From NCBI GenBank assembly GCA_921293015.1, contig OV121092.1:11104001-11168000 (forward strand): a DNA stretch of 64,000 nucleotides, written 5' to 3'. The notes under the pieces are model-generated. The model was given only the letters and a program-made list of their open reading frames with translations. It did no database searches and had not been told where the DNA came from. Within the stretch, counting starts at the first letter, position 1; each line of letters begins with the position of its first letter. The DNA is from Phorcus lineatus. Its lineage: Eukaryota > Mollusca > Gastropoda > Trochida > Trochidae. Both the position numbers and the translations under genes were made by a program. Shown piece by piece: positions 19,085 through 44,602 of this stretch.

Positions 19085-20340
19085 AAATGACTAAATGTTT
19101 GTAGAGGAATACGGGTATAGGCCATTACCATCTTTTCGAGTTTGATACATTCTTCATAACTTTCTAGAAACCCTACAGGATACTTGTTTTCTCCGGCCTT
19201 GTCGTAATTATAAAGAAATGTATGGTAATATTTTACTCATGTTATTCATTGATGTATGGGTATATTTCAAATGTCTTACAATAGCTTAATGTTGGAAACA
19301 GAAGGTATGCCTTTACTCTATTGCAAAATTTTTCTTAGCTCTGGCCTTGTCAAGCGTATAAAGACATATTTTTTCTCATATTATTTTATTGATTCACAGA
19401 GAGATTTGTGATTCAAAAATAATTTTTAAATTGTTGTAGCCAAACATAGGTACGCCTTTACTATGTTAACAAACTTCATAAGGTAAAATATTTCTTTGAG
19501 GGTCTTCTTGAAAGTTTGTGAGATGAATGAGAACACATTCTGTGGATTTACAACTTCTTTATTGCAAAAGTGCGACGTTTCGCTATTAAGGAAATGACGA
19601 TGAAGGCAAATGAGAATAAGTTCTCATGCGCAAATCGTACTCTCGCAACAAAGAAGATCAGAAAGCTCTTCACTTTGTTCATAACATTATTGAAATATTA
19701 AAATTTACTTCAAAGCTCATGCCATGTCACAAGTAAGTTGAACTTATTTTCCTTTGTTTCATCCAATTATTAATCATGGACATATTTCAAATTCTAAGAT
19801 AAATCTAAGATAATGCCTAAATGTTGGTTTCGGAATACAGGTTCACCTTTACTGTGCTGTCAAGCTTGGTACAACCCTATAATGTTGTTGAAACATTGCA
19901 GGATACTTGTTGAATATGACTGTGCTGTCGAAAGTATAAGAGGGAAAATAAGTTCATCCTTTTCTTTATTATTGATCAATGGCCATAACTGAGAGTCTAA
20001 AATAATCCCAAAATGTTTGTAGCAGAATACAGGTACGCCCTTACCTTGTTACCAAGTTTTACACATCATTCACATCATTCATAACTTTGTTGAATACTTG
20101 TTAACTTTGGCCTTGAAGTTGGAAGTCCATCGAACTTATTTTGTTTTGTTTTTTTGTTCGTTTCATTGTAATCGTTGATCCATGGACATGTTTGAAATTT
20201 GAAATAAAAATGCATGTATGTTTGTAGCAAAATACAGGCACGCCTTTACTATGTTAGAGAGTTCGATACATCCTTCATAACGGCTTAGGAAGGTTGCAGA
20301 ATACTTGTTAACTCCGTCCTTGAAGTCTGAAGTCAAGGGG
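19085..20340 (+). repeat. Degenerate ~195-bp tandem array
   Basis: A phrase of the type GAATACAGGTACGCCTTTACTATGTT, followed by TTGATACATCCTTCATAAC and GGATACTTGTTAACTCTGGCCTTG, recurs at about 19100, 19297, 19437, 19828, 20018 and 20222. The 391-bp gap at 19437-19828 fits one extra unit disrupted by foreign sequence. The array ends at the border of the CpG-rich ERG promoter block. Confidence 0.75.
19545..19660 (-). mobile_element. Insertion of a dispersed element with GACGTTTCG motif (hammerhead-like relic?)
   Basis: Interrupting the 195-bp array is a block reading TGGATTTACAACTTCTTTATTGC, then GTGCGACGTTTCG. A second copy of this motif order is at 26068-26120. On the minus strand it reads CGAAACGTCGC, the 3' core of hammerhead ribozymes as carried by Penelope-like elements and retrozymes. 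The expected CTGANGA half is not intact here. A short perfect stem ATGAGAA/TTCTCAT follows. Confidence 0.35.
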
Positions 20341-21100
20341 ACTAATCACTATAACGTACGGCTCTACGAGCGCTTTCATTATCTGTTTTTCTCCTGTTAT
20401 TACGGGGGACCCGGTCGATATTTATCCGTATCAACCACGGTCAATTTACTTAATCAGTGGAACTCTAATGACGGGACAAGATTTCCCGATAATCCATAAA
20501 GCTTCTGCAAAAGGATATAATTTTTATTCACATTTCGACTCAGTTTATTTCACAAATCACCGCCAACGGCAATTTTATTTCAAAGCATTGGAATTGGAGG
20601 AACGAAACGAGGATGTTAACACTCGAAATCGGGAATAACCTCAAGGTCATAAAGAGATCACATCCACGCACAAAAATTCATAACCCCGCTTAAGCGATAT
20701 TGAACTTTGCACAGACTTTGGGATCATGTTTCATGTTCTTTGGGTGCGCCGTATCATGTGATAGAAAAGCTAGGGCAATTTGGTAGGTCGATAATTAAGT
20801 GTATCGATTTTGGGCGTGGTAAAATAGCTTCATGGCACACCATATGGGAAAGCTTACCGCATGTCTAGACTAACAGGATAGTGTTACGTAAGGCACAATC
20901 CTTGATTTATAGAAGCAACGTCCAACTTGACCAGGGCCGGAATTTAGTAATCCCGAGTCGACTGCACGTGCGCTTCTTTCCAACTGCCAGTCTCGACAGA
21001 CGACATCTCTGATCCTGCATGAAAACATATTCAATCAATAATCCTCGGTGGTGTGTTTTACCGAGTCGTGCTTTATGAACAAACTGGGCACCAAAGTGTG

Positions 21101-21141
21101 GAGACCCTCCGGTCTGGATGTTTTGCTACGAGGGTCTCGCC
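21101..21141 (+). other. Inverted repeat in the putative 5' leader
   Basis: GAGACCCT at the left is matched by AGGGTCTC at the right with about 24 nt between. This can form a stem of 8 bp in DNA or RNA, about 380-420 nt before the ERG start codon. The function is unknown and the stem is short. Confidence 0.35.
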
Positions 21142-21281
21142 TCCTTTGTTGACACGAGACCACCGTTCCTTCACGGCATTGGAATCGCGGAGCGATCTCC
21201 AGCAAAGTAGTTCGTGGTGCGGTCGAGAGCGGATCGACATTATTTACACGAGGTTGTGAAGCGCCAATTGCAGCAGCCGCG

Positions 21282-21505
21282 ATGGTTGAGTCTGTGACGT
21301 ACAGTTCATCACTCTTGGTACTGTGTTCTACATGATATCTCCTAGCGTCCTCTGAAACCTGCTTCTGTGTACCCCCAGTGGAGAATATTCTCTTTACTGT
21401 ATACATTTGTGCCAAGACTACGACGAATATTGTGGTTCAGCCTTTGAAAAAGCTTGATCTCAGCCATTTTGGAGTATGCATGTTGATGGTATATAGATGA
21501 TGTAA
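21282..21505 (+). promoter_or_regulatory. Cluster of short upstream ORFs in the ERG 5' leader
   Basis: If this stretch is transcribed unspliced, the leader carries at least five short uORFs. They are 21282-21335 (17 codons), 21332-21355 (7 codons, overlapping the first), 21476-21496 (6 codons), 21480-21500 (6 codons) and 21497-21505 (Met-Met-stop). The last ends 15 nt before the main start and supplies its in-frame upstream stop. Such a leader would be expected to lower translation of the channel. This depends on the transcript start, which is unknown. Confidence 0.4.
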
Positions 21506-21520
21506 AGGGACTGGTTTAAG

Positions 21521-21596
21521 ATGCCAGTTCGACGGGGCCATGTGGCACCGCCCAATATCTTCATCGATACCATAATCAGGAAATTTGACGGCCAAA
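21521..21596 (+). CDS. ERG-type (KCNH2/6/7, seizure-like) potassium channel, coding exon 1 only
   Basis: This 76-nt exon encodes the extreme N-terminus of an ERG-class voltage-gated K+ channel. It reads 25 codons plus one base, beginning MPVRRGHVAP and continuing through DTIIRKF (residues 16-22) to DGQ (23-25). This closely matches the family's invariant start, known from human KCNH2. In the channel this is the PAS cap, a flexible tail plus amphipathic helix preceding the PAS/eag domain; it acts on the cytoplasmic side of the plasma membrane and slows deactivation. The start is supported by an in-frame TAA at 21503-21505, an A at -3 and the conserved Met-Pro. The exon ends one base into codon 26, and GTAAGT follows at 21597. 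From memory, human KCNH2 coding exon 1 has the same length and phase. The PAS core, S1-S6 and CNBHD must lie beyond the window. Which vertebrate paralogue it corresponds to cannot be decided from 25 residues. Confidence 0.93.
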
Positions 21597-21602
21597 GTAA
21601 GT
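21597..21602 (+). other. Splice donor of ERG intron 1
   Basis: GTAAGT follows CCAAA at the point where similarity to ERG channels ends, leaving the exon in phase 1. Translation can continue past it for about 50 codons by chance, but that sequence has no ERG or PAS resemblance, which supports splicing here. Confidence 0.88.
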
Positions 21603-22049
21603 ACTATTTATCATTATTATTTTGGATTTTACATAACCATTGTTCGTGTTCTGTGATTTACCATTCTCCCGGTGCCAATATTACGCCTGTGACATCATCG
21701 ACGTTTGACCGTGCAGTAAGTGTTTTTATCACGCACACGGTGGTCTGAGAGTATAGAAAATGTTGCATTGTTATGAATACATGTCCCTCGATGACACTCT
21801 CCTACAAAACATCTGGCCAGCTGGAGCATCATACACTGCCATGTGCGGAGATAGCGAGCTCTAGACTGAACCCCCTCCCCTCCCTGACCACTGCAGGGGG
21901 TCGCGTAATGTGCTTTCATCAATGTTGTGGGAACCGCATTGTTATACATCGTATTACCAGTAGGGAATATAGTGAGTTATTGCATTGGAGCACATGCACT
22001 CACGGGAACCGTCTTAACATTTTATGGAACAGTGTTTATATGGCTTAGT

Positions 22050-25000
22050 GTTTAAGGGTTCTTTTCCTAAAATGTTGCATATGTATAGTAACAAGAATGT
22101 AATAGCATAATTGATAAAAATCCTTCTTATGAATTTAATTATTTTCATACCCCGATTTCAGGCTTGTGAATGTTATGTGGCAACTTAATCAGTAAGAACA
22201 TCTCAGAATGTGCAAAATTAGCAACAAAGATTCTTAGCTTAAATCATAAATATTTTGCATTCAAAGACTTCATAGCTTAAGCATTTATAATTTTATGTAT
22301 GTGGATAAATATAATTAAGCGTTACTCTGTGATTGTTTCATAAATGCAATGTATTTACATTCTGATAAGAAATATATTTTAAGCTTATGTTTTAAAATGT
22401 TTGTGTGGTTTATTTTTATATACTGTTTGAAAGTAGAATTTTTCAATATAGGTCGTCAGGCTTTATTTGGATAACAAATTTAAAAAAGAATATTGCAATG
22501 TTTTGCATTTTTAAAATTTTTTAGTTGTATGAAAGAAAATCTGTTTAATATTTATTTCTAGGTCTGTACTTTCATAAACATTGATAACATTGCACAAAAA
22601 CTAAATCATCCCTTTATAATGTTTTCTCAAATATTTTCCATCATAAAATATCTTTCTATTATAAAGTTAAAAATTGCTTGTTGCTACATTTTATCATCTT
22701 CAGAATGAACATTTATTCAACTGAAAGTAGCATAATCATTTATTCAATAAGGGAATAAATATATATTAAAACACTATTAGCATTAGAGAATATCAGTTTC
22801 ATTAAATTCTTGGAGGGTTATTATTTTCATAATGAATCTGGACATTTTGATATATTTGACTCCTTTTCATACTACAGATCAAAATTAACATAAGTTTGGA
22901 TTCATGATTACAAAATATATTTATTTGATAAATATAATAAAAATTTGGTGTTATTATTTTTAAATCCGCTAGCCTTGATCACTCTTTTAAGACTTTTACT
23001 TGACCATCTTCATACTTTGCATTTTCCAAAAATTTCTAGACTTGCTAGAACTCCCTTACATTGTTATACAGATCGAAATTGAACTTTACAATATGCGTTC
23101 GCATTATTTTGATTAATGTTTTCCCAAACAAAAGGAATATTGTTGTGGCATGAAAGACAAGTTAAAACAAGTCTATACAGTGCTTAATGTACATAGTTTG
23201 AGAGAAACATTACCCTCAATTCCATTGTGCTCTCAAACTGCCCTGATAAAATCATGTTAAGAATAACAGTTAAACAGCTTATGATTTATGACTTTTATAC
23301 TGGAGGTTGATTGATACTTTACTTGATTAGTGGGATGTTATAATTTTCTGAGGATAATATTAATAATGATATAATCCTTCTTAAACTGAAAATCATTTTT
23401 TCCTCTGCATTTTATTGGTGTATACAAACAGATCTTTTTCTGATCTGTCTGAATGTGAAGAGGATTTACAACAGCAATAACAATGCTCAAACAAAAGAAA
23501 TTAATGAAATAAATTAAAAGAGAGTGTGACCTGAAGCGCGAGTGAGCACTTTATCAATGTTAAGCAAAGGCAATAATAGCTTGTGACAGCTTGCAGTGGG
23601 AGAATTATTAGCTGTGTTCCATTATAAGAACAACATGTCCCAATAATTTTGTGAAACATCAATTTATCATAAATTTTTTTTAAATAATGTAACAAGCTCT
23701 CATTGGTCAATGTTTGCTTTATATTTTGTATCTATCATGCTTTTTGGCATATTAATGTTTTAAAAAAAATTTTGGAGGGACATTTTTGCATAATGTTGCA
23801 TTAGATAAACATTAATTTGTTCAAACAAGCTGTCCATAAATTCATTATACTTTGTGCTCTTTGTTTTGTTTAAGCATGTCACTAATAATGTTAAACCAAT
23901 GCATTTTTTATCTTGATGATAAAAATAACATTCTTTTTACAAGATTACTTGGTATCTCATATCAGACATCGCTTTGTGTTAATAAAATTTTTACTATTTT
24001 TATGAAGGTTCCCTTGTACAAATGTGCCAACATTGGTTAATGTTTACAAACCATTTCCCTTTCTAAAATGATTAAAAGGTGTTCACACCAAAATGGCTGA
24101 ATGCAGTTTTCACTTGATTCTTCTAAGTCTAAGGTTAATCAGTTTGAGTAATGGGATGTTTGACCCTCTGAAGATGATACATTTTGCATAAACTAATGTT
24201 TATTGGGGAATATTTGATGAAATGAAATTATTTAAAAATCTCTTTACCTTTCCTTTATGCATCCCATTCATTCAGGTGTTTATTGTGGAATATTTCTGAT
24301 ATAGGTGATTCAGAAAGATACATTTCCTACATATGTGTATTTTTACTACATTCTCAGTATTTCCAAATTATACAATTGAATCAACAGACTTGAGAAATAT
24401 TTTTACCATACCAGAATATTCTGAATGTGTCTCCATTGTGCCAGAATGCATTTTGATAACTGCTCCCAAGTGCATTTTGATGCATTCTGATACTCTTGTT
24501 CCATAATGACCACATCCTCAATATTCCGACTCCATAATACTCATTTTAACTGAAATTAAGAGTTTATTCACACATGATGTGAAAATGTGACACAAATGAA
24601 TGTTGTAAATTCTGAATAGATGGTAGTGACAAAAGTTTTTTTTACAAACAACATTCTTAAAAATTAAAACATATCTCAAATGCTACTATATTATTTTCTT
24701 GATATGATTAAGACATTATTGAGTTGTTGCAGGGACTTTATGTTTTTATCTTATTCATGTTATGATCAAAATGGTAATTGTATTACCATCTTCATTACAT
24801 TAGATCTACTAATTGTTTATTTCATAATACGCAGGAAATTACATTGCTCTGTGAGCAATTCAATAGATAACAATCAATTCTTCATTGATGTTACGATTAT
24901 CTTATATTACCATTGACTTGCTGTAACTACTGATTCGTAATTAAGTCAATTAGTTGATATGAATAGTTGATAGCTGATCAGCTGACAAAGAAGGTGTAGA

Positions 25001-26060
25001 TAATTTGTACCTGTACCAGCCACCTGTAAGACTATCAGAGTTCTGGATTACTGTTGTGTGATAAGCTACAGAGATTTACCAAGGTACTTTAAAGTATGGG
25101 GGTGGGGTGAGGGATGGGGTGACACGTAATGGAACAGGGACAGGGAGCATTCTATGGTTGGGTGTTTTATGCATCCTCTATAAATCAAATTGCACCAAAG
25201 CTATATGTAGAGGAATACTGCAACATTAACGCTGGATTATCAAGGATCATTTTTAACATCAATATATCAAAATCAATTTCAAAAGAGAAGAAAGAATCCC
25301 TACCCCACCCCTACCCCTGCATGACTTAGCAAATGATAACGAGGACAGGGGATGGGGATTGATATATTTGTTATCAGTTCTTATCACTGTTACTCTGTTA
25401 CACTCAGTGCAACAGTTGAGTCTGTGGGGGCGGTATATTTACCATATCACTTCGCTTGTTTTATGAAATAATGTTCTTATTCTTTGTGCTTTCCTTTTGC
25501 ATAAGCATAAATATTGACAAGGATAGTTTTGTTTTCTTTATCTGAGCATCAGAAATGATAGTAATTCGTTGATGTTGGATATTGTTTCATTGATTTTGGA
25601 TTTGAAAAAAATTGATAGTCTTTCAAATCAATTGAATGAAATTGCTGATGGTGATTTTTAACTTCCTTGAAGGTCATCAGTTTGTGTTAAAGAATTAAAC
25701 CTAAGTTTAAATTTTTAAATACTAGAGTTGTGACAATACAGACATTTCACAATAGAAAACATTTAACGATATAACAATAGAAATCAATGTAATACACCTC
25801 ACAATACTCTACTTTCAGCAGAAGAGAGATTAACTTTTGGCGGAACAAAATGAACAATTTCATTTATTAGGAGATGTCGCCAGATTTAGTATCACAATTC
25901 TAGAAACTACAATGTGTATTCAAAATCTATGAAATACAATATCTAATGTAATTTGTTTATGAATGTTTATCTTTTTTATATTTATCAATATGAAAATGAT
26001 ACAGTAATAACAATGAACAATTTAAGTGGTTTTCTAGGAGTTTTCAGTTTAAGGAAGGCG
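22050..26060. other. Very AT-rich intronic sequence
   Basis: Apart from the dispersed ~50-bp motif at 24065-24115 no element is recognised. Small open frames here look like chance. Confidence 0.5.
24065..24115 (+). repeat. Dispersed short repeat, copy 1
   Basis: AAAAGGTGTTCACACC then AAATGGCT and GCAGTTTTCA recur at 51590-51640 in the same orientation, and in part at 55015-55050 in the opposite orientation. Confidence 0.6.
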
Positions 26061-26067
26061 AGAAATG

Positions 26068-26150
26068 TTATGGATTATCAACTTCTTTATTATACTGATT
26101 GTGACTGATAGTGATGTTTCGGTAAAGGTTCTTATACTGTTTTCCAGCAA
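26068..26150 (-). mobile_element. Second copy of the ACTTCTTTATT / GTTTCG element (hammerhead-like relic?)
   Basis: TGGATTATCAACTTCTTTATT is followed by GTGATGTTTCGGTAAAGG, matching 19545-19610 in order. The minus strand shows TTTACCGAAACATCAC, a possible helix-II strand plus GAAAC core. The CTGANGA box is degraded. Confidence 0.35.
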
Positions 26151-26557
26151 TAGGATAATAGTGAGATATTCTACTTATATAATTATGTACAAAATGCTGT
26201 ATCTCAAAATTGTTTTCCAGTTATTACATTTTCTCTTAAAATTCTTTGATAGTTATCAAAGTTTATGAAAGAACATGTATGTTCTATGTATTTCAGGATA
26301 TTATTTCATTCAATTAAATGGGTTTTTTTATGAAGCTCTACTGATATGTTGTATGTTGAAACATCTGTCATTTTGACAACAGCTTGCGACCTATATTTTA
26401 ACTGATGGAAGAATGTTTTGTTATTGGGTTATACGGGATGGAACTTGATATTTTTGTTGACATATAAGCAAATTATTTCTTTGGCAAGGACACTGGACAT
26501 AGATGTTCTTGTTATCTAGTTATCTAGAGAATCAATGAGTTGGTAGTGACATATGTC

Positions 26558-27004
26558 AAAGAGCCACTCCGTGATTTCATAACATATAATTTACCTTTGA
26601 TACAAACCTAAATCTCACATGTGGTGATATAAAATAAAAACATCTTAACTTTTCATGTCCAAATACTGGTTTTCCATGAAAATCTAAAAACAGCCTTATA
26701 AATGCACAGAGGTGTAGATATCATGTCCAATATAAATGGATACTAGTTATATAACCTATCAAATGCTATCAACTCCTAACTGCCCTCCTGGCTGTTTTAG
26801 ATAAGTCTCCAAGATTACGTCTGACTATTTGATGTGCACCACTGTCCGATCATAATTGCGACGTTCTACCTTCATATTGTCACTGTAAAGAAAAAATAAG
26901 CTTTAAAATGTGTCTTTTTGGTAACAGTCAATACTTTGCGATCAAATGACACCATTGATTAAGTTTGGCATATATGACTCCAACAACTCACGGAGAGGTT
27001 CTTT
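26558..27004 (+). mobile_element. TIR element, full-length copy (relative of 7887-8246)
   Basis: The left end AAAGAGCCACTCCGTGATTT and the reverse complement of the right end (AAAGAACCTCTCCGTGAGTT, at 26985-27004) agree at most positions, defining a ~447-bp non-autonomous element. The first ~370 bp align with 7887-8246. No transposase is present and no clear target-site duplication was found. Confidence 0.7.
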
Positions 27005-27990
27005 AAGGAACTTGAATAAGTTTCATAGAAAGATAAGATAAGATATGTGACATTATCTTAAATGGCTGAAGAGAATTCAAATTGTAATCTAGTGAACACA
27101 AAGAATTTAGACGATAATATCATAAACTCTTTAAGTTGCAATTGTATTTATAATGTTTTTTTTTCTAACTTTTCTATTATTTTGTAATTTTTAAAAAATT
27201 TACATTGGAATAAACTAGCAGAAGAATTTAATAAACTGAGCATTTTAAATGGATAAAGAGAGTAAACCGAGATTATTTGAAAACATATGGAAGATCAATT
27301 GTGTGTGTCATTGTATCACTTATAAACCATCTGTTGTCAGTTGATCTTCAAATGATTTTTTCACATTTTGTGATTAGAAATGTGTTGTTTTTTTAAAACT
27401 ACATTATTTCCACTTTTTTAAATTCATAATTTACATATTTATGGTATTTTAACAATATTTTTCTTCTTTACAACTTAGATTGTAATAAGTGAATGTGTCA
27501 TGCAACATCAAGACATGACATGTCTACTCAGGAATAAGAAAAAGACGTGAAATGTAAACATTATGCTATTGCGCAGTTACAGTATCAAAATAAAATCAAT
27601 AAACTTTGACATTCAATCTTTCTTGTATCTTTATCTGTTTTCACTTCATTGGAGCAGTTATACTAATTTTCTTTTTAGATTTTGAAAATAGTTTTTCAAA
27701 TTAATTGCTAATCATATTTTGATGAAGAGATAATAACTCTCTTGGCTTAGTAAGTACTTTCACTTTTGTGTTTTTGTGACAAAATCTTTTTGTTTGTTCA
27801 TGATTTCTATTACGGTGCACTAAAGTTAATATTTTCCTATATTCATGTCAGTAATTATAAATTTTTGAAGTTTTCATTCCTAATAGATCATCAAGAGCAA
27901 ATAGTTCACGCACCGAAAGCTATAATGTGTAAAAGTATTTGTTCTTTTACCAATAGTGAAGAGAATTTCAGACGTAGGAAACAAAAAAAA
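27005..27990. other. AT-rich intronic sequence
   Basis: Nothing recognised beyond T-rich tracts. Confidence 0.5.
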
Positions 27991-28004
27991 GATAACAATA
28001 TTTT

Positions 28005-28215
28005 TTCATTCGAAGTTTTGCTTTGTTAAAGTTGAGATTGCTATGTGATTTTCATTGAACAAAGCTTTTAGTTTTTTTCATTCTGTTTTCCTTTATTCAA
28101 ATTGAGATGGCTATGTAATTTTCATTGAACGGGCTTATAATGGTTTTTTTTATTCCATGTTTTTCTTTATCCAAGTTGAGATCGCTGTGTAATTTTCATT
28201 GAAAACAAGTTATAA
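28005..28215. repeat. ~72-bp tandem repeat, three diverged units
   Basis: GTTGAGAT(T/G)GCTATGT(G/A)A followed by TTTTCATTGAA occurs at about 28031, 28101 and 28174. Confidence 0.75.
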
Positions 28216-28219
28216 GGAT

Positions 28220-29075
28220 ATCCAGCTTTATCTACTATTAGTCTATTGAGATGTTTTTATGTTAGCTTTTTATTTCTAACCTTCCCTTTCAAATGCGTCA
28301 TCTGACTAAGCCAGGTTTTGTGATTAACAATAGCGTATGAGGAATTATCGTGTGATTTACATTTGCTGTAATCAAAAATACATTTGATTTTTCCGATGGT
28401 AATATCTGTCTAAAAATAAATCAGAGGCTCAAAGTACAGGAGAAGAACCTCTTTGAATGAAACTTTCAGTCGGATTTTTACGATTGCGATGCACACGACA
28501 GAACTAAAAGGGCTCTGTGGCTTGTATGTTTATGACAACTTTCTAATCAGTTTTCATTGTTTTTTGGAGAATTATTTTAGATTAAAGGTAAAGGTTGTAT
28601 GTTTCACATAATGTCTGTCATATTATATTATTTTTTTATGAAAAGAACCGAATTATTTCTTCTGACTCAGGGTATGAAAATATCACATCTAATGAAGTAT
28701 TTAGACAAAATCTAGCTAGTGGCAGATAGTCTTCTCTGAGTTGTATTAAGTTTGTAATTCTTGAGCCTTGGAGAGAGAGTTATATCATTGTATAAAATGA
28801 GGAAAAGATAAAATATCCTTCCCCATCACATGGTGGTTATTGTTTGTATTCTGTTTTCTATAAAGGATTTGGGTGGGGAATCTCCAAATTCATACGCCTG
28901 TGCTGTGGGTTTACATCACACTTACTTGTGCACTATTAAAAAGTCTCTTGTGAAAAAGTTTCAAAGTCAAAGTTAACTATAGTTTTTGTTGAAGGTTTAT
29001 TTCTATCATTCAACATGTTGACATTGTTCTATTGTAATAATTATTATTATGTTAATTTTTAATAGTTTGAAGAGT
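28220..29075. other. AT-rich intronic sequence
   Basis: No element or gene recognised. Confidence 0.5.
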
Positions 29076-29079
29076 AATG

Positions 29080-29199
29080 ACTACTACTACTACTACTACC
29101 ACTACCACTACCACTACCACTACCACCACTACCACTACCACTACCACTACCACCACTACCACTACCACTACCACTACCACTACCACTACTACTACTACT
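29080..29199. repeat. (ACT/ACC)n trinucleotide microsatellite
   Basis: About forty ACT/ACC triplets, giving an artefactual poly-threonine frame. Confidence 0.97.
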
Positions 29200-29784
29200 C
29201 AAATTGAATTTAGTCCAAGCAAAACATTCATTTTGATTGGTTCACAACCACCAATCAAAAGTCAGGAAAATCTGTAATTCCTTTGTGAAAAACATGACCC
29301 TGTTTCCATCTTCTCATTTGGTAATTTAGTTATATATATATTACATCAATATCTTTGATAGAACTAAAATGTCAAAAACTATGACCTCTGTTTATTGAAG
29401 TGTGTTATCATAAATTATATGTTATTTATAAAAAAAATCATTTTAGGAAACAATTGAAATTTGGACACCTTAAAAGGGATTTTCAAAGAGATTATAGCAT
29501 TTCATATATTTTCAAGGTAGTTGGTTCACTCAGATGGTTAACATTTGGTATCAATGAGTTTAGGTTTTTGGGTTGAAAGAGGAATAATGTGTTGTCGACC
29601 ATCATCATTTCCAAGGAACCAATTTTCTAACAAAACAATCACCTTATCTAATGAATGAGTTTCTATAACAATAATTGGTAAAAACATTCCTTCTTATCAG
29701 TGACCATTCCTGATCCATAGCAGTCTGGTCTGAGAGGTTTTCTACGTCTTCAAGCTTTGATTAGATGTAATTCAATGACAAGGG

Positions 29785-30182
29785 CAGGGATTAGCACCAA
29801 AAGCAGAGCTATTTTAGTCCACACCAGCATACTAAAGCCCTCACTTGTATTCACTTAGGCATTATGACAGCAATTTCATTGGAGAAAATTCTCACTTTTA
29901 TCACCGTAAAATAGGACAAGGAATAAATGTTTACTGCCTTAATGGTCCCATCTGTTGAGTCAGTGATTGTTAGTGCCAAATGTTGTATAGGAACCCAGTG
30001 GCACCGATTCCGAAACATGTCCAGAGCTGGGGGCGCTATGGTGTGTAACATACAGACAGGCAGGCAATAGTGTGTATAACACACGTCCACATTGCATTTC
30101 TCCTTCTCTTACTCACCACCGGGAGTTTAACAACAGTATTGTATGCCATAGCGCCAAGGGTCAAATAGCCAATCCCTGCTGA
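29785..30182. mobile_element. Possible TIR element with CAGGGATT ends
   Basis: GGGCAGGGATTAGC near 29787 is matched by GCCAATCCCTGCT near 30170, and an inner pair GGCGCTATGG / CCATAGCGCC lies at about 30032 and 30146. This nested symmetry suggests a decayed non-autonomous DNA transposon. The flanks show no clear target-site duplication. Confidence 0.4.
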
Positions 30183-30249
30183 CTTCAATGAGAGCTTTCT
30201 TCTATGCTTGGAGTGTGAAAATTGTTTTGCTTATACGCAAGCAAGGAAG

Positions 30250-31300
30250 AGTATGGAGGAAATGTCCCTTTAAAAATAAACTGCTTATATTAACTGTGTC
30301 AGTGATTATCGAAGTAATTTGGTATTGAAGAAGCTTTAAGACCTATTTTTAATCTAAGTGATGTTAGAAATGAACATTAAATTCCATATTTGCTTATGAA
30401 ATTATTGATGAGAGAAAACATCAAAGGAGAACCCTTATCATAATTGCTCATTCTATTGATAACAATGGTTATGGAGAAAAGATAGGGTTATGAAGATAAG
30501 GAATATCGTAGGATCTCTCTATGTTCAGAAAGTGTTACATGTTACGGTGAACCCTGAAGGGATGCCCTGCTCATTCAATGGAGATACCATTTTAGGTAAA
30601 AGGTATGGATTGCCTTGACTTGAATCCTCAAACACCAGTTTCCCTTAGCTTAAGATCTTCATCACTATGGGCTAAGGATGCTTTAGCAGATGTCAGTTTC
30701 CGATATGGTATTCATTTGTAGAATTTTCGTGTAATTTTCAATATTTTACCATGGGGTTGAGCCATTGACATTCACTACCTAATGACTTTTCAACATTTAC
30801 CAAATGTTTCTATATAAACAGTGATTTTTTTGTTCTTAAATTATTTGCACAAAAGTGAGTTCATGTTGTTGTTTCATACAGTTTAACACTCTTGTATAAA
30901 ATTTTCATTTAATTAGATGCACAAAAAATTAAATATACAAAATTCCATTTGAAACCAATATTATAGAAATATTTCCTAGAATTTGTACAGAGTTGTTGAA
31001 CGACATGTTTATATTTGTTCCATACAAGATATTGAAAATGTACTACATAGAAATAGTGTGCATGTCAAAGTAAAATAGTGAAGATATCTGTCTTCTCACA
31101 CTTTGTCAGGGGTCGATCGTAGAAGATCATATATTATTGGTCCTATGAAAAAAATACATGTATTACAAATTATTTTAACATCAAACTACTGTAGTGTGCT
31201 GGTGACTTTCATGTCTAAGTAAAATATTGAAACTGTTACAGTCATAGAAATCCAAGATGACAATGGTTCAGGAGACAAATATTCACTACAAAGCAAAAAA
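30250..31300. other. AT-rich intronic sequence
   Basis: No gene or element recognised. Confidence 0.5.
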
Positions 31301-31565
31301 TGTCAGGGTTGTATGCTAGATATGTTAATCATGTCTAAGTGGTGTGTTGAGGAGCTGCCATCCTTCCAGGTACATGGTGCAGAGTTATAGAATGTCACAT
31401 TTGAGTATGTGAATAGTTTGTAAGAGATTTCCTCACACGTTGTGCTGAATTGTATAACATCAAAGTAGGGTGTTGAACTTGTTTCCATCTTTCCCCCAAA
31501 AATAGTACCGATTTGTAGATCCTTCAGTAGGATGTTGAGTTTGTTTTTAGACTGTGGCAGTAGGG

Positions 31566-31593
31566 GAGCTCCCGAGAGTCTTGTCGGGAGCTC
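31566..31593. other. Perfect 10-bp hairpin
   Basis: GAGCTCCCGA and TCGGGAGCTC flank an 8-nt loop. A minus-strand 100-codon frame (31303-31605) reads across it without recognisable motifs. The GC-rich stem contrasts with its surroundings. Confidence 0.6.
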
Positions 31594-31912
31594 AAAGTAT
31601 CTCAATTAGAGATCCATGTCAGTGATGAGCGCTGTGTATTGATTGGCTGTATTGAAGAGGTTGAAACCAACACTCACCACTCATATTAATTCCATACTTA
31701 TTATCCAACCTGTCTTTGAGCAAGCGCTTCTATTTGTACAAGATGAATACGCTGTAATTAAGACTCATCTGCCGTGGATCACCACCGCTGGACTCCTCGG
31801 GGTAGCTACATCAGTGAGCTGCCGACCATGCTTCTTCACTGTGTAACACATCTAGACTTAAACATGGTTGCTAAATAGTCTGTGGCAGATGTTGGAGGTG
31901 AACCGAGGTAAT

Positions 31913-32085
31913 TTGGGGTTTAACACCGCTTTCAAGAGTAATTCACTTATATCACGGCTGCTAGTATTAATGTAGGGAGAAAGCCCACAACACTATTGTG
32001 GCTATGCATTGTGGTGTAACCTGTGAGCATTAGTTGGAATTAGTGAACAATCAAACCATGGTTGGTACTGTGCTGAACAGCTCTT
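31913..32085 (-). mobile_element. SINE A, 5'-truncated copy
   Basis: The 3' half of the SINE seen at 15103-15436 is present in the same orientation (TTTGGGGTTTAACACCGC, CTTATATCACGGCTGCTAGT, AACCATGGTTGGTACT). The tRNA head is missing. The 23-bp minisatellite begins about 15 bp beyond the break. Confidence 0.85.
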
Positions 32086-32098
32086 TGAAATTTAAGGA

Positions 32099-32420
32099 GG
32101 GGGATTGGGTCGGAAGAGGAACGGGGATTGGGTCGGAAGAGGAACGGGGATTGGGTCGGAAGAGGAATGGGGATTGGGTCGGAAGAGGAATGGGGATTGG
32201 GTCGGAAGAGGAACGGGGATTGGGTCGGAAGAGGAACGGGGATTGGGTCGGAAGAGGAACGGGGATTGGGTCGGAAGAGGAACGGGGATTGGGTCGGAAG
32301 AGGAATGGGGATTGGGTCGGAAGAGGAACGGGGATTGGGTCGGAAGAGGAACGGGGATTGGGTCGGAAGAGGAACGGGGATTGGGTCGGAAGAGGAACGG
32401 GGATTGGGTCGGAAGAGGAA
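32099..32420. repeat. 23-bp G-rich minisatellite, 14 units
   Basis: The unit contains GGGGATTGGGTCGGAAGAGG plus AAC or AAT. Since 23 is not a multiple of three and the unit lacks stops, all three plus frames and one minus frame stay open. This yields 120-177 codon frames with identical GLGRKRNGDWVGRG-type repeats. They have no recognisable protein family and should not be called genes. The G runs could form G-quadruplexes on the plus strand. Confidence 0.97.
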
Positions 32421-32489
32421 CTATCAAAGGGAAGGGGTTCAGCAGTCTACGGTGCACTTTATTGTGTTTTTTTCGAAAGGGGAGTTTAA

Positions 32490-35340
32490 CCCTAACCTAC
32501 AATCTGATAGGCAAAATAAACAACATGTTAATAAAATCATCTGACACAGATTCCCAGGAATTTGGCATTGGCTATAAATATATACATTATTTGGTATCAA
32601 CCATAACTTCAGAATGTTCTCTTTCACATGTAGATTGAATTGTGGTTTCCAAGAGATGATTTCAATATCAGCTCAGGTTATGTAAAAGAAACACCTATTT
32701 GAATAATGAGCTGAGCAAATAAAGGTTTCATTTTCATTGTAGTACAAAAATATCAGCCGAGACTGATCCATTAAAGACTTCTCTTGCATCCTTTGTCCAC
32801 GAGAAAAAGTTTTGAAGTGACATGTTCTTTTGTACTTATCTTAAACATCTTTCTGCTTTTTCGTCAAAACTTCCTTTTTCAAGAAGAAGTAATTTTCCAA
32901 CATTAGTGTCCTCTTATGATGGATATGAGAGGTGTGCCCTTCACAGAGATCAAATCAGAATCCCTCTAAGAATCAGCAACTTGAAAAACTTCATGTCTTC
33001 AAGCTAAAAAAATCTATTTCTGACCAAAACTGAAGAGTATCAGTGAAAGACTATCAGAGCAAATGGCAATAAATCGAAGCAAAGGCAATAGATCCATGGC
33101 CGGAGGCTACAATGTCTTCTGTGGTCTCATCAAAGCTCCACTTCTTCTCCAAATGAGGCTCTGTCTAACCATTGTATCCCATCATGCCTCCTGGTTCTCC
33201 TCCCGCCGTTGACTTAAAGGAACTGTTCTATCTTCTTGTCAGCCATATTGGTTATTTTAGGTTTGGTGTACTAAACTAGTTTTATAATTTGATGAAAATG
33301 AAATTTGTGTAATGATAGTTGATAAGACTGATCTACAGTGCCCTGAAATAACGTTGCTTGGCATTCCATACTTGTAGCACCAGTGATTGGAACCATTTCT
33401 GAACAGTTTTCTTTTTGAAAATTTATCATCAAATTGTCAAATCTAAAGCAACCAAATTTTGACTGTTGTTAATGTTTCAAGCTCATTGATTGAAAATCCT
33501 CTTTTGGAAACACTGGAATCTTAGCCCCTTGAATTTTGTTTTAACAAAGATGATAAAATAGAAACAGATCTTTAACTCCAATATCCTTGACTGACAGTTA
33601 ACTGTTGAAGTAAGTAGGTTTCTGTGAGCCAAGAAATAGTAACATGTAATCTCTTGATATATAATTGCATTTGGATAGAGAATAGGACAAGAAAGAGTCT
33701 AAACAAAGTTTAGAGTTTGTCATTAGCCTTTTCCTGTTATCGTTTTCTGTCACTCAGTATTATCATAATATTTGAAAAAGAGTATACAATTATACAGTAT
33801 TATATATTATAAGACAAAAAATGAAACATAGCCAACATTACTCCAACATGTTTCATTGATATCTTCAGGGAGTCTATCTATTATATTGTATTTTATAATA
33901 ATAATTTTGATAATTATATATATTGAGATTTGACTTAATCAAACTGGTGGAGGGTTTATTAAGACAATATGTCATTTTGTTATTTTCTTTCCTTCTTCGG
34001 TGCCTGCATCTTAAGGGTTAAGTACTTTCACTTTGGAAAATAGACTCCTCCTTAATAACTTATATGTTTTAGATAAAAATATCTTTTTCGGAGAAAGACA
34101 TTCATTTGATTTTTTGTAGGAATTTTTTGGGACCTAATTTAGGTGCTACTAAAGAACTTCAACAATTGAAGTGCTGCTTATTTCTATTAAAATTTGTCAA
34201 ATTATTTCCAGAAAACAGATTTCATGACTTATTAGCATTATTGGAGTGAAACATCTTGAATTGAAGTTTAAAGATTTTTTTTAATTCTGACTGAGTCAAT
34301 TTAAGATTCACATCACAGGAAATGGAATCCTTAAGTTGTGTTTGAACAGAGTTGAATTGAGAAAAAATGAAATTGGTTTTGAACATAATGATTTTGTTTG
34401 ACAGAATCTGAAAGCAATAATTTTTTATTCTAACAAGAATTCATCTTGCTTCTTGTTTGTTAAAATCTCAATTCAGATTATTAAAAAGATTTTATCACGA
34501 TTTGGAAATGAAAACAATTGTCTCAGAATTTGTTTATCATTGTCAACCAAAATGGTTAAACATGTATTATTACTAGGAATTAATTATAAAATTTAACGTG
34601 CCCTAATGTTTTTATTGTAAAACCCAATTGTATAACATTTATTAATTTATTTATTTATTTCTGTTATGATTAAAAAGTAAAATTTACTCACTTTTGTTTA
34701 CATGTTTTCTCTTCTTTGGATAAAGGTATGCGAAATTCTTATTCTCCATATCCCACCTTATGAAGAAGTTAGCATCATATGGTGTATTTTCTCAATAAAG
34801 AAGTCATTTGAAGTAAATCTTTTTATATATTTGTGACTTCTAAATGCCAGTCAAATATAAATAATAATAAGATAAGATAATAAGATAAAGACATTACATG
34901 TTATCGTGGCTACCAGAAAGCTGTATTAAGAATTGTGTTTATTGTACAATAATCATGTTTTTTATAAGCAGTTATGACATTTCCAAGCTATCATCTCATT
35001 GCTGTAAGAGAATCAGAGGAAAGCCTTTAATCAAATTATCTGAGAGCTGAGAAATTATCTCATCTTCTTATTAAGTCAATTTATTCTCTCCATGTTATGT
35101 AATGTTCTTGTGATAAGAGAATGTAAAGAGAAGATATGGCTAATGTAATACTCTTCAGAGGTATGTCCAGGAGGTGATAGCTATAGCTGAAAACAGCGTT
35201 TTCATTCCGCAGAACCTTTCCTTCATAGAGCTTATCTGCTCCTGAAATTTGGTATTTACGATTTAGTACACATAACCTTCTACCCACTTCTTTCATGTGT
35301 TCTAAAGTTCATCTTCAGAGAATTATGTGTGTGTCTTGAC
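32490..35340. other. AT-rich intronic sequence
   Basis: No gene recognised. It contains a GC-richer patch at 33090-33215 of unknown nature. Confidence 0.5.
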
Positions 35341-35839
35341 TGCAGTAAACAATGAGATATGATGCCATTGTTTGCATCAACACTGTTCATCCTAGAACTC
35401 TCCCAGGAACATGATGTTAGGAACATTATACGATTCAAGAATGTTTAACAACTCAAGGATAGTGACATTTCTTCATGATTTCTAGTATATGTAGCCTTGT
35501 CAAAATCTGTCTTGTGCTGCAAAGAGAATCTGAAAAATGTTAACAAACCATGTCCTTAAGAGAAGATCAAGCTATCCCTATTTATTATAATTCATGAATA
35601 CTCTTGATCAAACTGAGGATTAATGCATGGATCTGCTTATATAAGAAGTGGAGGAATGTACATATACCATGAGAAACTAAAGAACAATACGTGTTCTTGG
35701 GAGGAGAGTTTGACCTATTTCTGTCTATCACAATTCAAGAATGTTGATCAACTGAGGAGCATTGCATCTGGTAATATCCACTACATGGAGAAGTGTACAC
35801 GTACAATGAGAAACAACACTACATATTCTTAAGAGATCA

Positions 35840-35957
35840 GGGCCTTCTTTCACAAAGCCCTAAATTGATCGTAAGTCCTTAAGGTAACCTTAGTGCAATG
35901 TTAAAGAATGGGAGTTAAGGTTAACCTTAGTAAAGGTTGCTTTGTGAAAGGATGCCC
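35840..35957. mobile_element. 118-bp MITE with GGGC ends
   Basis: The left end GGGCCTTCTTTCACAAAGC and the reverse complement of the right end (GGGCATCCTTTCACAAAGC) match except at three positions. Inside are near-palindromic TTAAGGTAACCTTA and TTAAGGTTAACCTTA. Too small to encode anything. Confidence 0.75.
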
Positions 35958-36024
35958 AGTTCTACCTGCAGTAACCAAATCATGAACTCAACATCTTCCA
36001 TCAGGATGGCAACTCAAGAACCAA

Positions 36025-36206
36025 ACATGTTAGTCATGGTAGCCTATCTGATGATCAGATCCAAGATAACATGTTAGTCATGGTAGCCTATCTGATGATC
36101 AGATCCAAGATAACATGTTAGTCATGGTAGACTGTCTGATGATCAGATCCAAGATAACATGTTAGTCATGGTAGCCTATCTGATGATCAGATCCAAGATA
36201 ACATGT
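36025..36206. repeat. 44-bp tandem repeat, four units
   Basis: Units begin ACATGTTAGTCATGGTAG at 36025, 36069, 36113 and 36157, with a partial fifth at 36201. Each contains the perfect palindrome ATCTGATGATCAGAT, except one unit with a GTCTGAT variant. Confidence 0.95.
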
Positions 36207-36693
36207 TCTTATGAAAATGAAGCCTGATCCGAAATGTGTGTCCAATTATGCATGCTTTTACAAACCCTTCAAGGAAGTAGTTGTTCATATAAATCCCCTG
36301 CTGTGTCTGTCCCTGTTCTGACTATGTGTGCAATCAAACTTGTTCTTGGAATTAAAATGTTTTTGAATTCCAAATTTGGCATGGATATTGCATATTTTGA
36401 GTCTTTTGAGGTAAGTATTGACCCTAAACATGAAGGCAGTCGAGCTGGAGACAGTGATATGTGAGCTTTGCTATGTTTTCCTTGCAAGGATAAAACATGA
36501 TCCGAGATATGGAATGTCCTACTGGAGAACAAGGCAAGTGCCTGAAAGACCACATCAAACTATTCAACTCTAGAACAGAGTTTCTGACCAGTATGTGTAC
36601 CCAAGATTGAGGCATGTTCCTATGTCATTTCCAAGTATATGAATCAGTTTATGAAATGAGGCACGATCAGGGAACATTAGACTAACATATAGA

Positions 36694-36907
36694 CCCTGAA
36701 AAAAAGGTTTCACCTAGAATGTATTTTTCAATATTTGGTATGAAATAATATAAAAAAGTTGTCCTGTACAATACTTATTTCCTATGGCTGAGGCAATGTA
36801 ATCCCTGAAAAAAGATTTCACTGTTTATCTAATTTTGAATATTTGATATTAAAAAATATATATAAAAGGAGTCCTGTACAATACTTTACTTCCTATGGCT
36901 GAGGCAA
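36694..36907. repeat. Tandem duplication, ~109-bp unit
   Basis: CCCTGAAAAAA with TTTCAC, then GTCCTGTACAATACTT and TTCCTATGGCTGAGGCAA, appear twice, starting at 36694 and 36803. Confidence 0.9.
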
Positions 36908-37140
36908 CTAGACTTGCCAACATTTCCTAGACTTAAGAATGCTCCTTTAATATTTTGCCATAGGGCCTGGATGACAGACTAGGGGAACTTGTGCTGAAAA
37001 GAATCTAAAATGTGCTGTACTATTGAAGAATAAGGCATGTTCTTGGAACAGCACACAGTGACCAACTCACAAACAACACGAGTTCCAATGGGAACCACAG
37101 CAACCAACAAGTAATTTATACTTTAACAAAGCTACTGCCT

Positions 37141-39110
37141 TCCTGCAAGGCATTGTATTAAGCAATTTGGATCCTATTGCATTTGGTAATGAGTGTGCAG
37201 TCACTGGATTTAACTGCATTCATTGTGCTGTTCTGGAAGTCTATTAGTTCTAGGCCTCGTTATAAGACTGAGGATTCCTCGTTGTAAGTGACCAATGAAC
37301 AGCCTGAATGGTAGACTAATTGTTACATGTGAAAGATGTTTTTCAATTAATGCAAAGCATTTCTTAGTTTCATTTTTCCCAGCATTCAATTTTAGTTTGG
37401 AACAATGAGAAGGCAACTGGTGGATCAGGGAGAAGGGGTATGTTTGAGGAATTTGGGGTCTGTAAGTGAAATTCTGTACAGGCTAGCTCCAATAGGAACC
37501 AATTCTATATACTGTAAGGGACCACCTCAAGCTGGATGCAACTGCATGTGGAGACGCCGAGCACTGAATGCATGTTTCAGATTACAATAATGATCCAGTC
37601 AAGCACAATCTGGTCGATCAGCTGATGAATTATATAAATAGCTTATTAAAGTGATCGCTCTCAAGATATGGATAGAAAAACTTGCAGGAATTGTATCGTA
37701 ATTCCAAAATCAATTTGATCATGGTCGGGTCTGAACTAGTTCTTTTCTCAACTTTCTGCTGGTGGATGTGGACTAGTACAGACGTAGGATTGTCAATGCT
37801 CTAGACATTTCAGTGTTGAGTTTAATACATATGTAGATTGAATATGTCTTAAATGATTATCAATTTCAGATTTTTTAGTTCTTAGCACAGTGTCTAAATA
37901 TATATATATCCCAAGACATGTATACTCAACAACAAAAGTTGAGGACCACCCAATATTCAATATTTGTGAATTGTATGGATCATTGTACAATAACTATACA
38001 ATATCTCAATATTCAAGATAATATTTAAAGATAATATCATTTGTTGAGATATTAAGGTTTTGAATGTTGATTTTTATTTTACATGCAATCATTTAATTTG
38101 ATAATTAATGTCATATTAATTTTGAAAAAAATTTATTAAGATGAATCCTTGTCATATTGAACTGTTTCTTTTCAAGATTGGAGTTTTAGAACTTTGATTA
38201 ACAGAAACTCATCAATCACGTCTTGATCAATCGCATTTATGAAATATTGATACAAAGATTCCTTAAATGATACACATCAATCAAAGTCTCTCAAACTACA
38301 AGGAATGAGTTTTAAAGATAAAAAAGCTTGTTTTATTGTTTTCACAAAAGAGTTGAGAGGTGAGAAGAAGAGATGAAAAAACTTTTTTATAGTTTGAACA
38401 AAAGAAGCAGAAAAGAGATGAGAAAAATCTTATTAATCGGCTTTAGTTAATGAGGTTAGACACGTCAAGAGACGACAATGGGTCTGCAAGGTCCCAGCAC
38501 TTCTCTTTGAAAGAGGAAGCTGTTGTGGGGACCAGTGTCACTGGGCATGCTGGTACAAGACAGCACAAGGCTAAATGAACAACTGTTCTCAGAGATCGAG
38601 GTGATGAAATTCATTTAGAACGGCATCTCTGACAGTGTGAATGAATTTGTCATTTAGTATTGACATTCTGTGGGCCTCCACGGCCCTTGAACCTCTTTGA
38701 AGCTCGGCAGACCAAAAATAGCCAATTAGTTTTCCATTTGGGTATAATTTATATCCTTGTAATGTTTCAGTATGTTTGAAGTAGCAAATCTGTGTAAATG
38801 ATGTTTGAATATTTTTATTGTGCAAGGGAATTTGATTTCCATTGACTTCTGTGATCAAGTGTTTGAACTAGTAACAAGTTTGGATGTGTGGCTAGTTTAG
38901 TATTATTTAATGACTGATATCAGTGGAATTCATTTCTTGAGTAATAATGAGAAAGATAATTTTAAAGTAAAATTATTGATGATGGATGAGGTTTATTATT
39001 AGATTAAAATCTTATTTTTTTCAAAAAGTGACAATTTCATGTTTTGAAAATATTAATCAGATTATTCAAATCTGATCTAATCCTCAAAAATTGTTTAAAA
39101 ATTCACAAGA
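37141..39110. other. Intronic sequence without recognised features
   Basis: Short open frames only. No gene supported. Confidence 0.5.
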
Positions 39111-39134
39111 GTAAAGAGAAAAAAAAGTCTCAAA

Positions 39135-39255
39135 GATCCATATCATTTTATTTTCGTATTAACAATTCTTTGACGATACAGCAAATATAATTGATAACAT
39201 TTTCCTTGATTTCTTACATTTCGGGGCTACTTCTTGCTCCTTCTTCAGGTGATAT
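39135..39255 (-). mobile_element. Possible hammerhead-ribozyme-like relic
   Basis: The minus strand of 39217-39251 reads ACCTGAAGAAGGAGC and then GCCCCGAAATGT. The CTGAAGA box fits the hammerhead CUGANGA core, followed by an imperfect stem and GAAA. Helix III and the cleavage site are not evident. The order resembles the terminal sequences of Penelope-like elements and retrozymes. Confidence 0.3.
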
Positions 39256-39407
39256 TGTTATCTCACCAACTACTTACGCCTTTGAAGAATTTCATTTCTA
39301 TGACCTTTTTTTAAAAACATTGTTCTGATATGACACAAGACTAACCAGAGTCATATTTGACCATAATGTCTCTAGATTCTCACAGGGTTATTCATCTCTA
39401 TAAAGCA

Positions 39408-39712
39408 CGGGGGCGGGATAGCGCAGTGGTTAGCACGTTCGGCTTTGGATCAGGAGGTCCGTGGTTCGAATCCAGCCAGGGGCTCGGCAACTTTGTCTGC
39501 AATAGAGAACTGTTCTACACGCAGTCAGATTTGGGTGCAATGCTACACTGAAATTCAGCGTAGTACCACCCATGGTTCACTGGTTCCAGCCGATGCTCGC
39601 AGGTTTCACCGCAATGCATAACCACAATGGTGTTGCGGGCTTTCTCCCTGCAATAATATTAGCAGCGGCGATATAAGTGAAATAATCTTGAAAGCGGCTT
39701 AAAACACCAACT
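39408..39712 (+). mobile_element. Full-length SINE A with Pol III promoter
   Basis: The same family as 15103-15436 but on the plus strand. The head is GGGCGGGATAGCGCAGTGG with B box GTGGTTCGAATCC; the body contains ACCACCCATGGTTC and GTGTTGCGGGCTTTCTCC; the 3' part contains ATATAAGTGAAATAATCTTG. Its 3' end runs directly into the (CACCT)n array. The 64-residue frame over it is not a gene. Confidence 0.92.
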
Positions 39713-39874
39713 CACCTCACCTCACCTCACCTCACCTCACCTCACCTCACCTCACCTCACCTCACCTCACCTCACCTCACCTCACCTCACCCCACCTCAC
39801 CTCACCTCACCTCACCCCACCCCACCCCACCCCACCCCACCCCACACCACCTCACCTCACCTCACCTCACCTCA
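39711..39874. repeat. (CACCT)n/(CACCC)n pentanucleotide array on a SINE tail
   Basis: About thirty CTCAC pentamers with a block of CCCAC variants follow the SINE end without a break. The array appears to be an expansion of the SINE tail. Confidence 0.95.
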
Positions 39875-39959
39875 TCCCTTCAGTCAGTATAACACATTCA
39901 TAAGGCTTGCTGTAACAACCTGCTATCAGTGAAGCGTCCTGGTAACGAGGGGTCACTAC

Positions 39960-42090
39960 ACCAGTGAGTGAGTGTAATATGTCTGCCACTAACGAAGAGG
40001 GTCGTTAGTACACGGTGTCTCCTGATGATGTTGCCATTTAATTACAAACACAGACACTTGCCTTACTTATAAGCACCAGTAGCCAAACGTTGTTAGAATA
40101 ATTGGCAGATGTACTGACGTTTGTACTTTCGGTTACTTGTCCAGTTTTAGCTAAGTTGAGTTTTTTTTCTTCAGTGAAGCAGAGATAGGGCTTAGCCCAA
40201 TTTTTATTGTGTTTATATTGCTTTAAATAGGATATTCTCAATCAAGGTTCATTCTAAGTTCAAAGTTATGAGTGTTTTATTAACATTTTCTTATGGTAAC
40301 GGCTCCATCTGCTTCGTGAAAAAGTTGAACTCTATGTGTGCTCTCTGTCACCAGACCAAGGTTCATGAGACAATCTAGTGAAGAATAGTTTAACCTTCTA
40401 ACTCTGAACAAAACTAAATCAGACTGACCCCAGGTTTTTATGTCTTAGCTTAGACTGGGCCCATGTTCATGAAAGGGTTAACCAACCATGATTTTATTGT
40501 CTCAACTATTTGAGATATCTTATTTATGGAATATGGCCATTTGAAAGGATTTTGCTCCAAGATTTTATATTTGATAATTTAAAGAAGATAACACCTGGCT
40601 CCCTCATCTTGCCTCCTAATATGGTTGCCTTTTGTAAAAACAAATGACCTGTTGACTAGAATTATGTTTTTAAAAGATAATCTTCAAACAAACTTAAAGC
40701 CAATGCAATTAACATTTTCATAGCACCCAAAAGGCTAATTTTCAGTTATTAGAATTAAAAATTTATTTAACGATGTCCTAAATATTGTACCATCCCACCA
40801 CCCACATTCCATGGTATAACATCTGCCCCTACGGTGCAATAGAGGAACTAGAAGCATCCACAATATGGCAGCCATTTATAAACCCTTTTCAGAGCAGAGC
40901 ACAGAAATCTGAAAGACTTTGCATAGAAGATGGGATTCAATGGATAGGTCCTGGAGGAAAACGATTATGGAAATGGATTTGAAAATCAGTAATCTTTATA
41001 AGTTAGACCAGAGTTGGCATGTTTGTCAAAGCATCATCTCAGAGCATTAACCCTTAACCTGAGGATATGCAAATATTACTAGACAACTAGTCACTAACAA
41101 AATGTCGGATTTTATGTGGATGATAAAAATTTTGTACCATTACCACACAGAATGTTTTTTCATTTTTTAAATAAAGATTTCAAACATTTTTATGTTTGAA
41201 CTGTTTCCTTTAAAATATCAAATATTTGTTTTGTCACATTCTGATGGTTCAAGATGGCATTTATTGGTAAAAGTTTTTTCTGTTTGAAGTTGAGCTCTAT
41301 GACAGACAACAGAGAAGATTACAGTGATTCTTAACCCTCTGCCTGCTAGAGTGTTTACAGGTTTTTACCTGGAACATAAAAATTGTTTGATTAAAACAAT
41401 TACCTCACATGCGTATGTAAACAAAAACTACAATGAAAACTTTTCCTTATTTATGTGCAGTCCTTTTTCAGGCCCTAAAAATTTCATGGAAATTATTAGT
41501 GTCAGTGTGCATGCCTTGTTTATTACTGGATACATTAAAATTGAACAAGAAATTTATCAGAGCATTCCCAGCTATTGAAAATAATATTTTTCATTTTCAG
41601 TTCAGGTTTTAGCAATGGATTCTTATTGATTATGTTGATAAGTATGACTTTTAGCACTTTTGATAATTTCGGAAATGTTGTATGTGAGTGTTATTACAGT
41701 CACATGCTTGTCCATTTGACTATCTTTTGAAAGTCAGATATTCAACAAGAAGCAATCTGAGATATTTATCATGTCTGAAAGATATCCAGACAATGTCTTA
41801 CACCTCCGTTATGCAAACCCTCTTTATGACAAGAAAACGTTCTTGTGGATGACATAAAGTGTGGTGTGTGACTGGGCGCTTACTTTGCCCGTCATTTATT
41901 CCTGTGTACATCTATTTTATTGATTTTGTGTTGAGATGCTGCAATCTGGGAATTTTCACAGAGATTGCTGAAGAAAGGCAATGATTATCATCATTATGTG
42001 GAAAGAATATGTGGAATATAAGACCATGTTGACGAGAAAATAGATTGTTATATGACTGGTGGTGAAATACCGGAATCTATCATTGAAAAC
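39960..42090. other. Intronic sequence without recognised features
   Basis: No gene supported. A solitary MITE-like end, TGGGCCCATGTTCATGAAAG, near 40456 has no partner nearby. Confidence 0.45.
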
Positions 42091-42106
42091 GAACCGTGTT
42101 ATCAGT

Positions 42107-42588
42107 CACTAGTGAATATAGCATTGGAACGTGTTATCAGTCACTAGTGAATATAGCATGGAAACGTGTTACAGTCTCTAGTGAATATGGCATTGGAACG
42201 TGTTATCAGTCACTAGCGAATATAGCATTGGAACGTGTTAAAGTCACTAGTGAATATAGCATTGGAATGTGTTACAGTCACAAGTGAATATAGCATTGGA
42301 ATGTGTTACAGTCACAAGTGAATATAGCATTGGAATGTGTTACAGTCACTAGTGAATATAGCATTGGAACGTGTTATCAGTCACTAGTGAATATAGCATT
42401 GGAACGTGTTATCGGTCACTAGTGAATATGGCATTGGAATGTGTTACAGTCACTAGTGAATATAGCACTGGAACGTGTTACAGTCACTAGTGAATATAGC
42501 ATTGGAACGTGTTATCAGTCACTAGTGAATATAGCATTGGAACGTGTTATCAGTCACTAGTGAATATAGCATTGGAACGTGTTACAGT
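42107..42588. repeat. 34/35-bp minisatellite, 14 units
   Basis: Each unit starts with the palindrome CACTAGTG (or a one-base variant), then AATATAGCATTGGAA(C/T)GTGTTA, ending TCAGT (35 bp) or CAGT (34 bp). The two length classes are interspersed. Confidence 0.96.
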
Positions 42589-44085: not shown

Positions 44086-44093
44086 TTTATTTG

Positions 44094-44487: not shown

Positions 44488-44602
44488 TTTATTTGATATC
44501 AGAAGAAACTCGGGCGATATTCTCTGTATAAAAATAAAATATCTTGCCTTACTAAAACTCATAATGACAGAAAAGTAGCAATAAACTTTGTACCAATCAT
44601 GA

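Follow-up and report, generated by a model that had tools for sequence, protein, structure and literature searches.

In human ERG, the PAS-cap is described as pointing to S4, the S4-S5 linker, and the C-linker, and its removal is reported to alter channel closing much as removal of the PAS domain does (PMC7515569). The ERGs of fly and worm are reported to have lost the eag domain independently. Nematostella NvErg1 is described as having retained this domain and as resembling human cardiac ERG in behavior (PMC9989356).

We analyzed a 64,000-nt stretch of the Phorcus lineatus genome (the window; C19:11104001-11168000). Judging from its sequence, 21521-21596 is almost certainly coding exon 1 of an ERG gene (Kv11, KCNH2/6/7-type), the only one with an eag domain found in this genome, compared with KCNH2, 6, and 7 in vertebrates (PMC13398235). 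The gene falls on the eag-keeping side, like NvErg1 and unlike the fly and worm ERGs as reported (PMC9989356).

Identification of the first coding exon

The features at the start of the gene were as follows.

21503..21505, + strand: in-frame TAA upstream of the ERG start codon, which also closes a two-codon upstream ORF
21521..21596, + strand: ERG coding exon 1, 76 nt, ending in phase 1; PAS-cap residues 1-25 and the first base of codon 26
21597..21602, + strand: splice donor GTAAGT of intron 1

The exon opens with an ATG at 21521, and its 25 codons, MPVRRGHVAPPNIFIDTIIRKFDGQ, are followed by one nucleotide and then GTAAGT. Compared with residues 1-25 of human KCNH2, 21 of the 25 residues are identical (84%). 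When the 26-residue reading of the exon was searched against PDB chains using phmmer, the E-values were 4.9e-10 for KCNH2, 1.1e-8 for KCNH7, and only 0.35 for KCNH1. In an ungapped comparison with the human residues, the exon scored 115. The second-best place in the window scored 26, and among 30 randomized versions made with a first-order Markov model the highest score was 36. ERG codons 1-10, written as a degenerate 29-base pattern, matched once in the 957.8 Mb assembly (74 contigs), and the reversed control had no match. A chance match was ruled out by the PDB E-values, the genome-wide pattern count, and the scores of the Markov versions.

The original prediction of a 76-nt ERG first exon, with 25 codons matching the ERG start and ending at a donor, was thus correct in sequence and frame. 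Its extent, given as 21521..21602, holds at the start; the exon ends at 21596 and the last 6 nt are the donor. Codon 26 had been read as Ser, which is what the unspliced open frame gives because it runs into the intron. The spliced codon is A+AT, and AAT encodes Asn. Exon 1 is an ordinary, well-conserved exon, and the novelty earlier attached to it was overstated. A short upstream ORF, ATG ATG TAA at 21497-21505 (+), lies in frame with the ERG start, 15 nt before it.

Downstream exons and gene model

A tblastn search of the 200 kb following the window with a human query yielded a PAS-core match at window-scale 114306-114551 (+) and a second PAS exon match at 181688-181783 (+); the N-linker was matched weakly, with E 0.012, at 202341-202526. 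The first of these corresponds to the following exon.

Window-scale 114304-114534 = C19:11218304-11218534, + strand: ERG exon 2 (PAS core, 231 nt)

The PAS core had been predicted to lie downstream of 64000. Indeed, the PAS-core exon was found on the same contig and strand, 92.7 kb from exon 1. A whole-genome search placed the core exons at C19:11377335-11382239 (+), where identity to the query was 76, 74, and 87% for the three best. The PAS exons are followed by an N-linker exon and then by six exons for S1-S6, the C-linker, and the CNBHD. A lack of ERG PAS or S1-S6 exons downstream had been named as evidence against the original prediction; the PAS, S1-S6, and CNBHD exons are present, on the same strand, and joined in phase.

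The ten predicted exons, of 76, 231, 135, 230, 435, 400, 200, 88, 165, and 194 nt, have GT/AG borders and compatible phases. Together they encode 718 residues without a stop, ending at the CNBHD, and span 256,716 nt (256.7 kb). Four introns are long: 92.7, 67.2, 20.5, and 70.8 kb. The splice borders were set by eye and chosen to fit the protein, so the phase agreement is partly by construction; this does not apply to the sequence identity or to the human-sized exons 1 and 2. The model was built without C19:11368001-11376900, and a small N-linker exon might have escaped detection there or elsewhere, though no such exon is needed to close the phases.

The distance of 92.7 kb to the next exon, together with the independent loss of the eag domain by fly and worm ERG (as reported in PMC9989356), would fit a relic exon left behind after the start of the gene had moved, as in an eag-less ERG of the fly and worm type. 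We regard this as very improbable: exon 1 and the two eag exons downstream are all intact, the former ending at a consensus donor and the latter joining in phase, and 84% identity to human over 25 residues would hardly be kept by an unused exon. The preferred reading is that of the first coding exon of the gene, which would be spliced across the 92.7-kb intron to the PAS-core exon.

The predicted protein

The 718-residue model matched PDB chains of KCNH2 at 1072 bits, KCNH5 at 596 bits, and KCNH1 at 595 bits. The comparison with Elk was restricted to the eag domain because no full-length Elk chain was among the PDB matches; over this domain, the model scored 188 bits against KCNH2 versus 120 bits against the Eag-like channel 4hp4. 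Based on these bit scores and on the presence of separate Eag and Elk loci, the predicted protein is more similar to ERG than to either of the other subfamilies. In a BLASTP comparison with a typed human query, the eag domain was 64% identical (134 columns) and the rest 71% (559 columns).

The eag domain, encoded by exons 1-3 (PAS-cap and PAS core), matched KCNH2 eag-domain chains at E 2.4e-54 and contains the Pfam family PAS_9; Ion_trans (257-522) and cNMP_binding were the other families detected in the model. The six-transmembrane core is present, with the selectivity filter SVGFGN, as are the C-linker and CNBHD. The gene shares with human KCNH2 (hERG1a, Kv11.1) the PAS-cap (21/25), the PAS domain, the six-transmembrane core with SVGFGN, and the C-linker/CNBHD. 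It differs in having Asn26 where human has Ser26, and FDL in place of the FNL of hERG at the position of the intrinsic-ligand motif.

The Anopheles ERG (AGAP007709-PA, PDB 4l11, which we take to be the Anopheles entry) was compared over the C-linker/CNBHD alone: of 196 residues, 155 are identical in the C19 gene and 154 in human ERG. We assume that the mosquito ERG lacks an eag domain, as in fly.

Exon borders in KCNH2 and in Eag and Elk genes

The original prediction held that exon 1 has the same length and phase as in human KCNH2. Published positions support this: c.77-1 is the exon-2 splice acceptor and c.77G>T is p.Ser26Ile (PMC12251465), and therefore human intron 1 comes directly after c.76 and is in phase 1. 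This source is inconsistent on c.77-2, which one sentence calls a donor and Table 1 assigns to the acceptor of exon 2. As c.307+585 is reported to lie in human KCNH2 intron 2 (PMC2890623), the borders c.76 and c.307 give, by subtraction, a human exon 2 of 231 nt, as in the C19 gene. On these reports, the two genes share an intron 1 in codon 26 in phase 1, a 76-nt exon 1, and a 231-nt exon 2.

Similar borders occur in other genes of the same genome. A gene on C7 (PAS exon plus first exon) had KCNH1 as its best PDB match at 151 bits, versus 106 bits for KCNH2, and was assigned to Eag. The PAS exon on C17 matched an Eag-like channel best at 89 bits, followed by KCNH1 at 79 and KCNH2 at 67, and was assigned to Elk by this modest margin. 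Both PAS exons are 231 nt long, with phase-1 borders on either side at the codons where the ERG exon is cut. Exon 1 of the Eag gene lies 25 kb upstream of its PAS exon and comprises 26 residues and one base, 79 nt, followed by GTAAGT. The pattern that found it had that one match only, and with it no Elk exon 1 was found on C17. As the cut is also present in Eag, and at the acceptor in Elk, it is not special to ERG. Its presence in Erg, Eag, and Elk would reflect common descent, parallel gain being the alternative.

The N-terminal motif is common to the subfamilies, and the phase-1 cut recurs in the 79-nt Eag exon 1 and the Elk PAS exon, as would be expected if exon 1 in the window belonged to an Eag or Elk gene. 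Such an assignment is refuted by the ERG identity of the downstream exons (KCNH2 1072 bits); in addition, exon 1 itself matches KCNH2 at 4.9e-10 versus KCNH1 at 0.35, and the Eag and Elk genes sit elsewhere, on C7 and C17. We consider it extremely improbable and retain exon 1 as that of the ERG gene on C19.

A second ERG-like gene

The whole-genome search also detected exons at C25:15856257-15872773, the two best sharing 60 and 66% of their residues with the human query. Six of these exons, joined by hand, scored 654 bits against KCNH2 versus 404 against KCNH1 and were 64% identical to the C19 core. Searching the whole genome with the eag domain of the C19 gene (E limit 10) gave seven matches. 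Three lie on C19, two on C17, and one each on C7 and C2, the last with E 1.47; no eag/PAS exon was found on C25. This absence is provisional because the search scores the best candidates only and the assembly may have gaps. The Anopheles CNBHD was 79% identical to C19, 79% to human, and 65% to C25, identities that give no sign of a single eag loss common to insect ERG and the C25 gene. Among the best literature matches, no title concerned an eag-less ERG paralogue in molluscs; novelty is not claimed.

The human 1b variant uses its own first exon. The exon in the window might likewise be a genuine ERG exon that shares its role with other first exons, with a 1b-like short ERG starting inside the long introns. 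Human ERG1 is reported to have forms 1a and 1b, the latter without the PAS region (PMC5907531), and the four long introns of the C19 gene would leave room for such a start. However, no alternative exon was found in the genomic sequence, and the C25 gene, for which no eag exon was found, could make a 1b-like form needless. Additional first exons are unlikely, and exon 1 is the predicted start of the C19 gene. A more speculative arrangement, which we hold to be conceivable if rather doubtful, is that the long eag-bearing ERG on C19 and a separate eag-less ERG on C25 provide subunits that mix to tune closing speed, like hERG1a/1b, and, separately, that the phase-1 cut is older than the Eag/Erg/Elk split.

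Surroundings of exon 1 in the window

Two further features of the window concern this gene.

20251..21750, strand not assigned: G+C- and CpG-richer patch around exon 1; possible promoter/5' UTR region
21597..64000, + strand: 5' portion of intron 1; the window yielded no further ERG exon

In the patch, CpG observed/expected was 0.58-1.27 over six 250-base bins and above 0.95 in five of them, versus 0.56 for the window. The transcription start of the ERG gene may lie here. Intron 1 has a whole length of 92,707 nt, separating exon 1 from the PAS-core exon.

The window had been called otherwise geneless. This fits the searches: no Rfam family at the gathering score and no tRNA gene were found in the window. 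Of its 39 stop-to-stop frames with at least 85 residues, 10 were scanned and contained no Pfam family at E 0.01; among the other 29, 13 are in repeat arrays (~32.0-32.6, 53.2-53.7, and 61.3-61.7 kb) and 16 have 85-99 residues. With the eag-domain query, the next best hit in the window had E 4.2 among the best 40 matches listed. A tblastn search with both parts of the query, covering the window and the 200 kb after it at an E limit of 0.5, detected no ERG core exon in the window. Minisatellite arrays occur at 10378-10852 (52-bp unit), 32100-32421 (23), 42095-42606 (34), and 61035-61738 (67); those at 32100 and 61035 create long spurious open frames.

Duplicated exon ends and other observations

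A tandem array at C19:11379138-11380232 (L022:2238-3332), with an 86-bp unit, 12.7 copies, and 97% matches, starts inside ERG exon 7. It repeats the last codons of this exon with the donor ATG|GTGAGT, which occurs 13 times at exact 86-bp spacing, the first copy being the exon's own. As 86 is not a multiple of 3, most of the later donors, if used, would shift the frame. In a second exon-end duplication in this gene, the 3' end of exon 10 (..NLEITFDLRD) and its GTAAGT donor recur 111 nt downstream (L022 ~5400-5447, C19). The frame between the two donors is open, so the later one would add 37 residues.

On C2, Myosin_head exon matches are clustered on both strands at C2:56253553-57074307, at least 13 of them near profile positions 237-393. 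The cluster may comprise perhaps 13 or so copies of a muscle-type myosin heavy chain in 0.8 Mb. A muscle-myosin exon from C2 scored 224 bits against PDB chain 3i5f, presumably squid myosin, 201-203 bits against the next entries, presumably scallop myosins, and 189 bits or less against vertebrate myosins. This ranking agrees with the original description of the genome as mollusc-like; as no annelid or brachiopod entry was recognized among the 54 PDB hits, lophotrochozoan is the more cautious term.

Discussion

The PAS-cap encoded by exon 1 would form the N-terminal tail of the channel and, as in human ERG, would slow channel closing. Slow deactivation of the C19 channel may be expected on this basis. 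The side results, namely the cut common to KCNH genes, the second ERG without a found eag exon, and the repeated donor, appear to be of modest interest. Exon 1 itself illustrates cleanly how ORF-length filters miss very short exons. A PAS exon of 231 nt bounded in phase 1, as seen in Erg, Eag, and Elk alike, would be a simple marker of the common origin of the three subfamilies. Finally, in contrast to the ERGs of fly and worm as reported, the C19 gene is an ERG in a lophotrochozoan that has kept the whole eag gating domain and the exon boundaries of its human counterpart.
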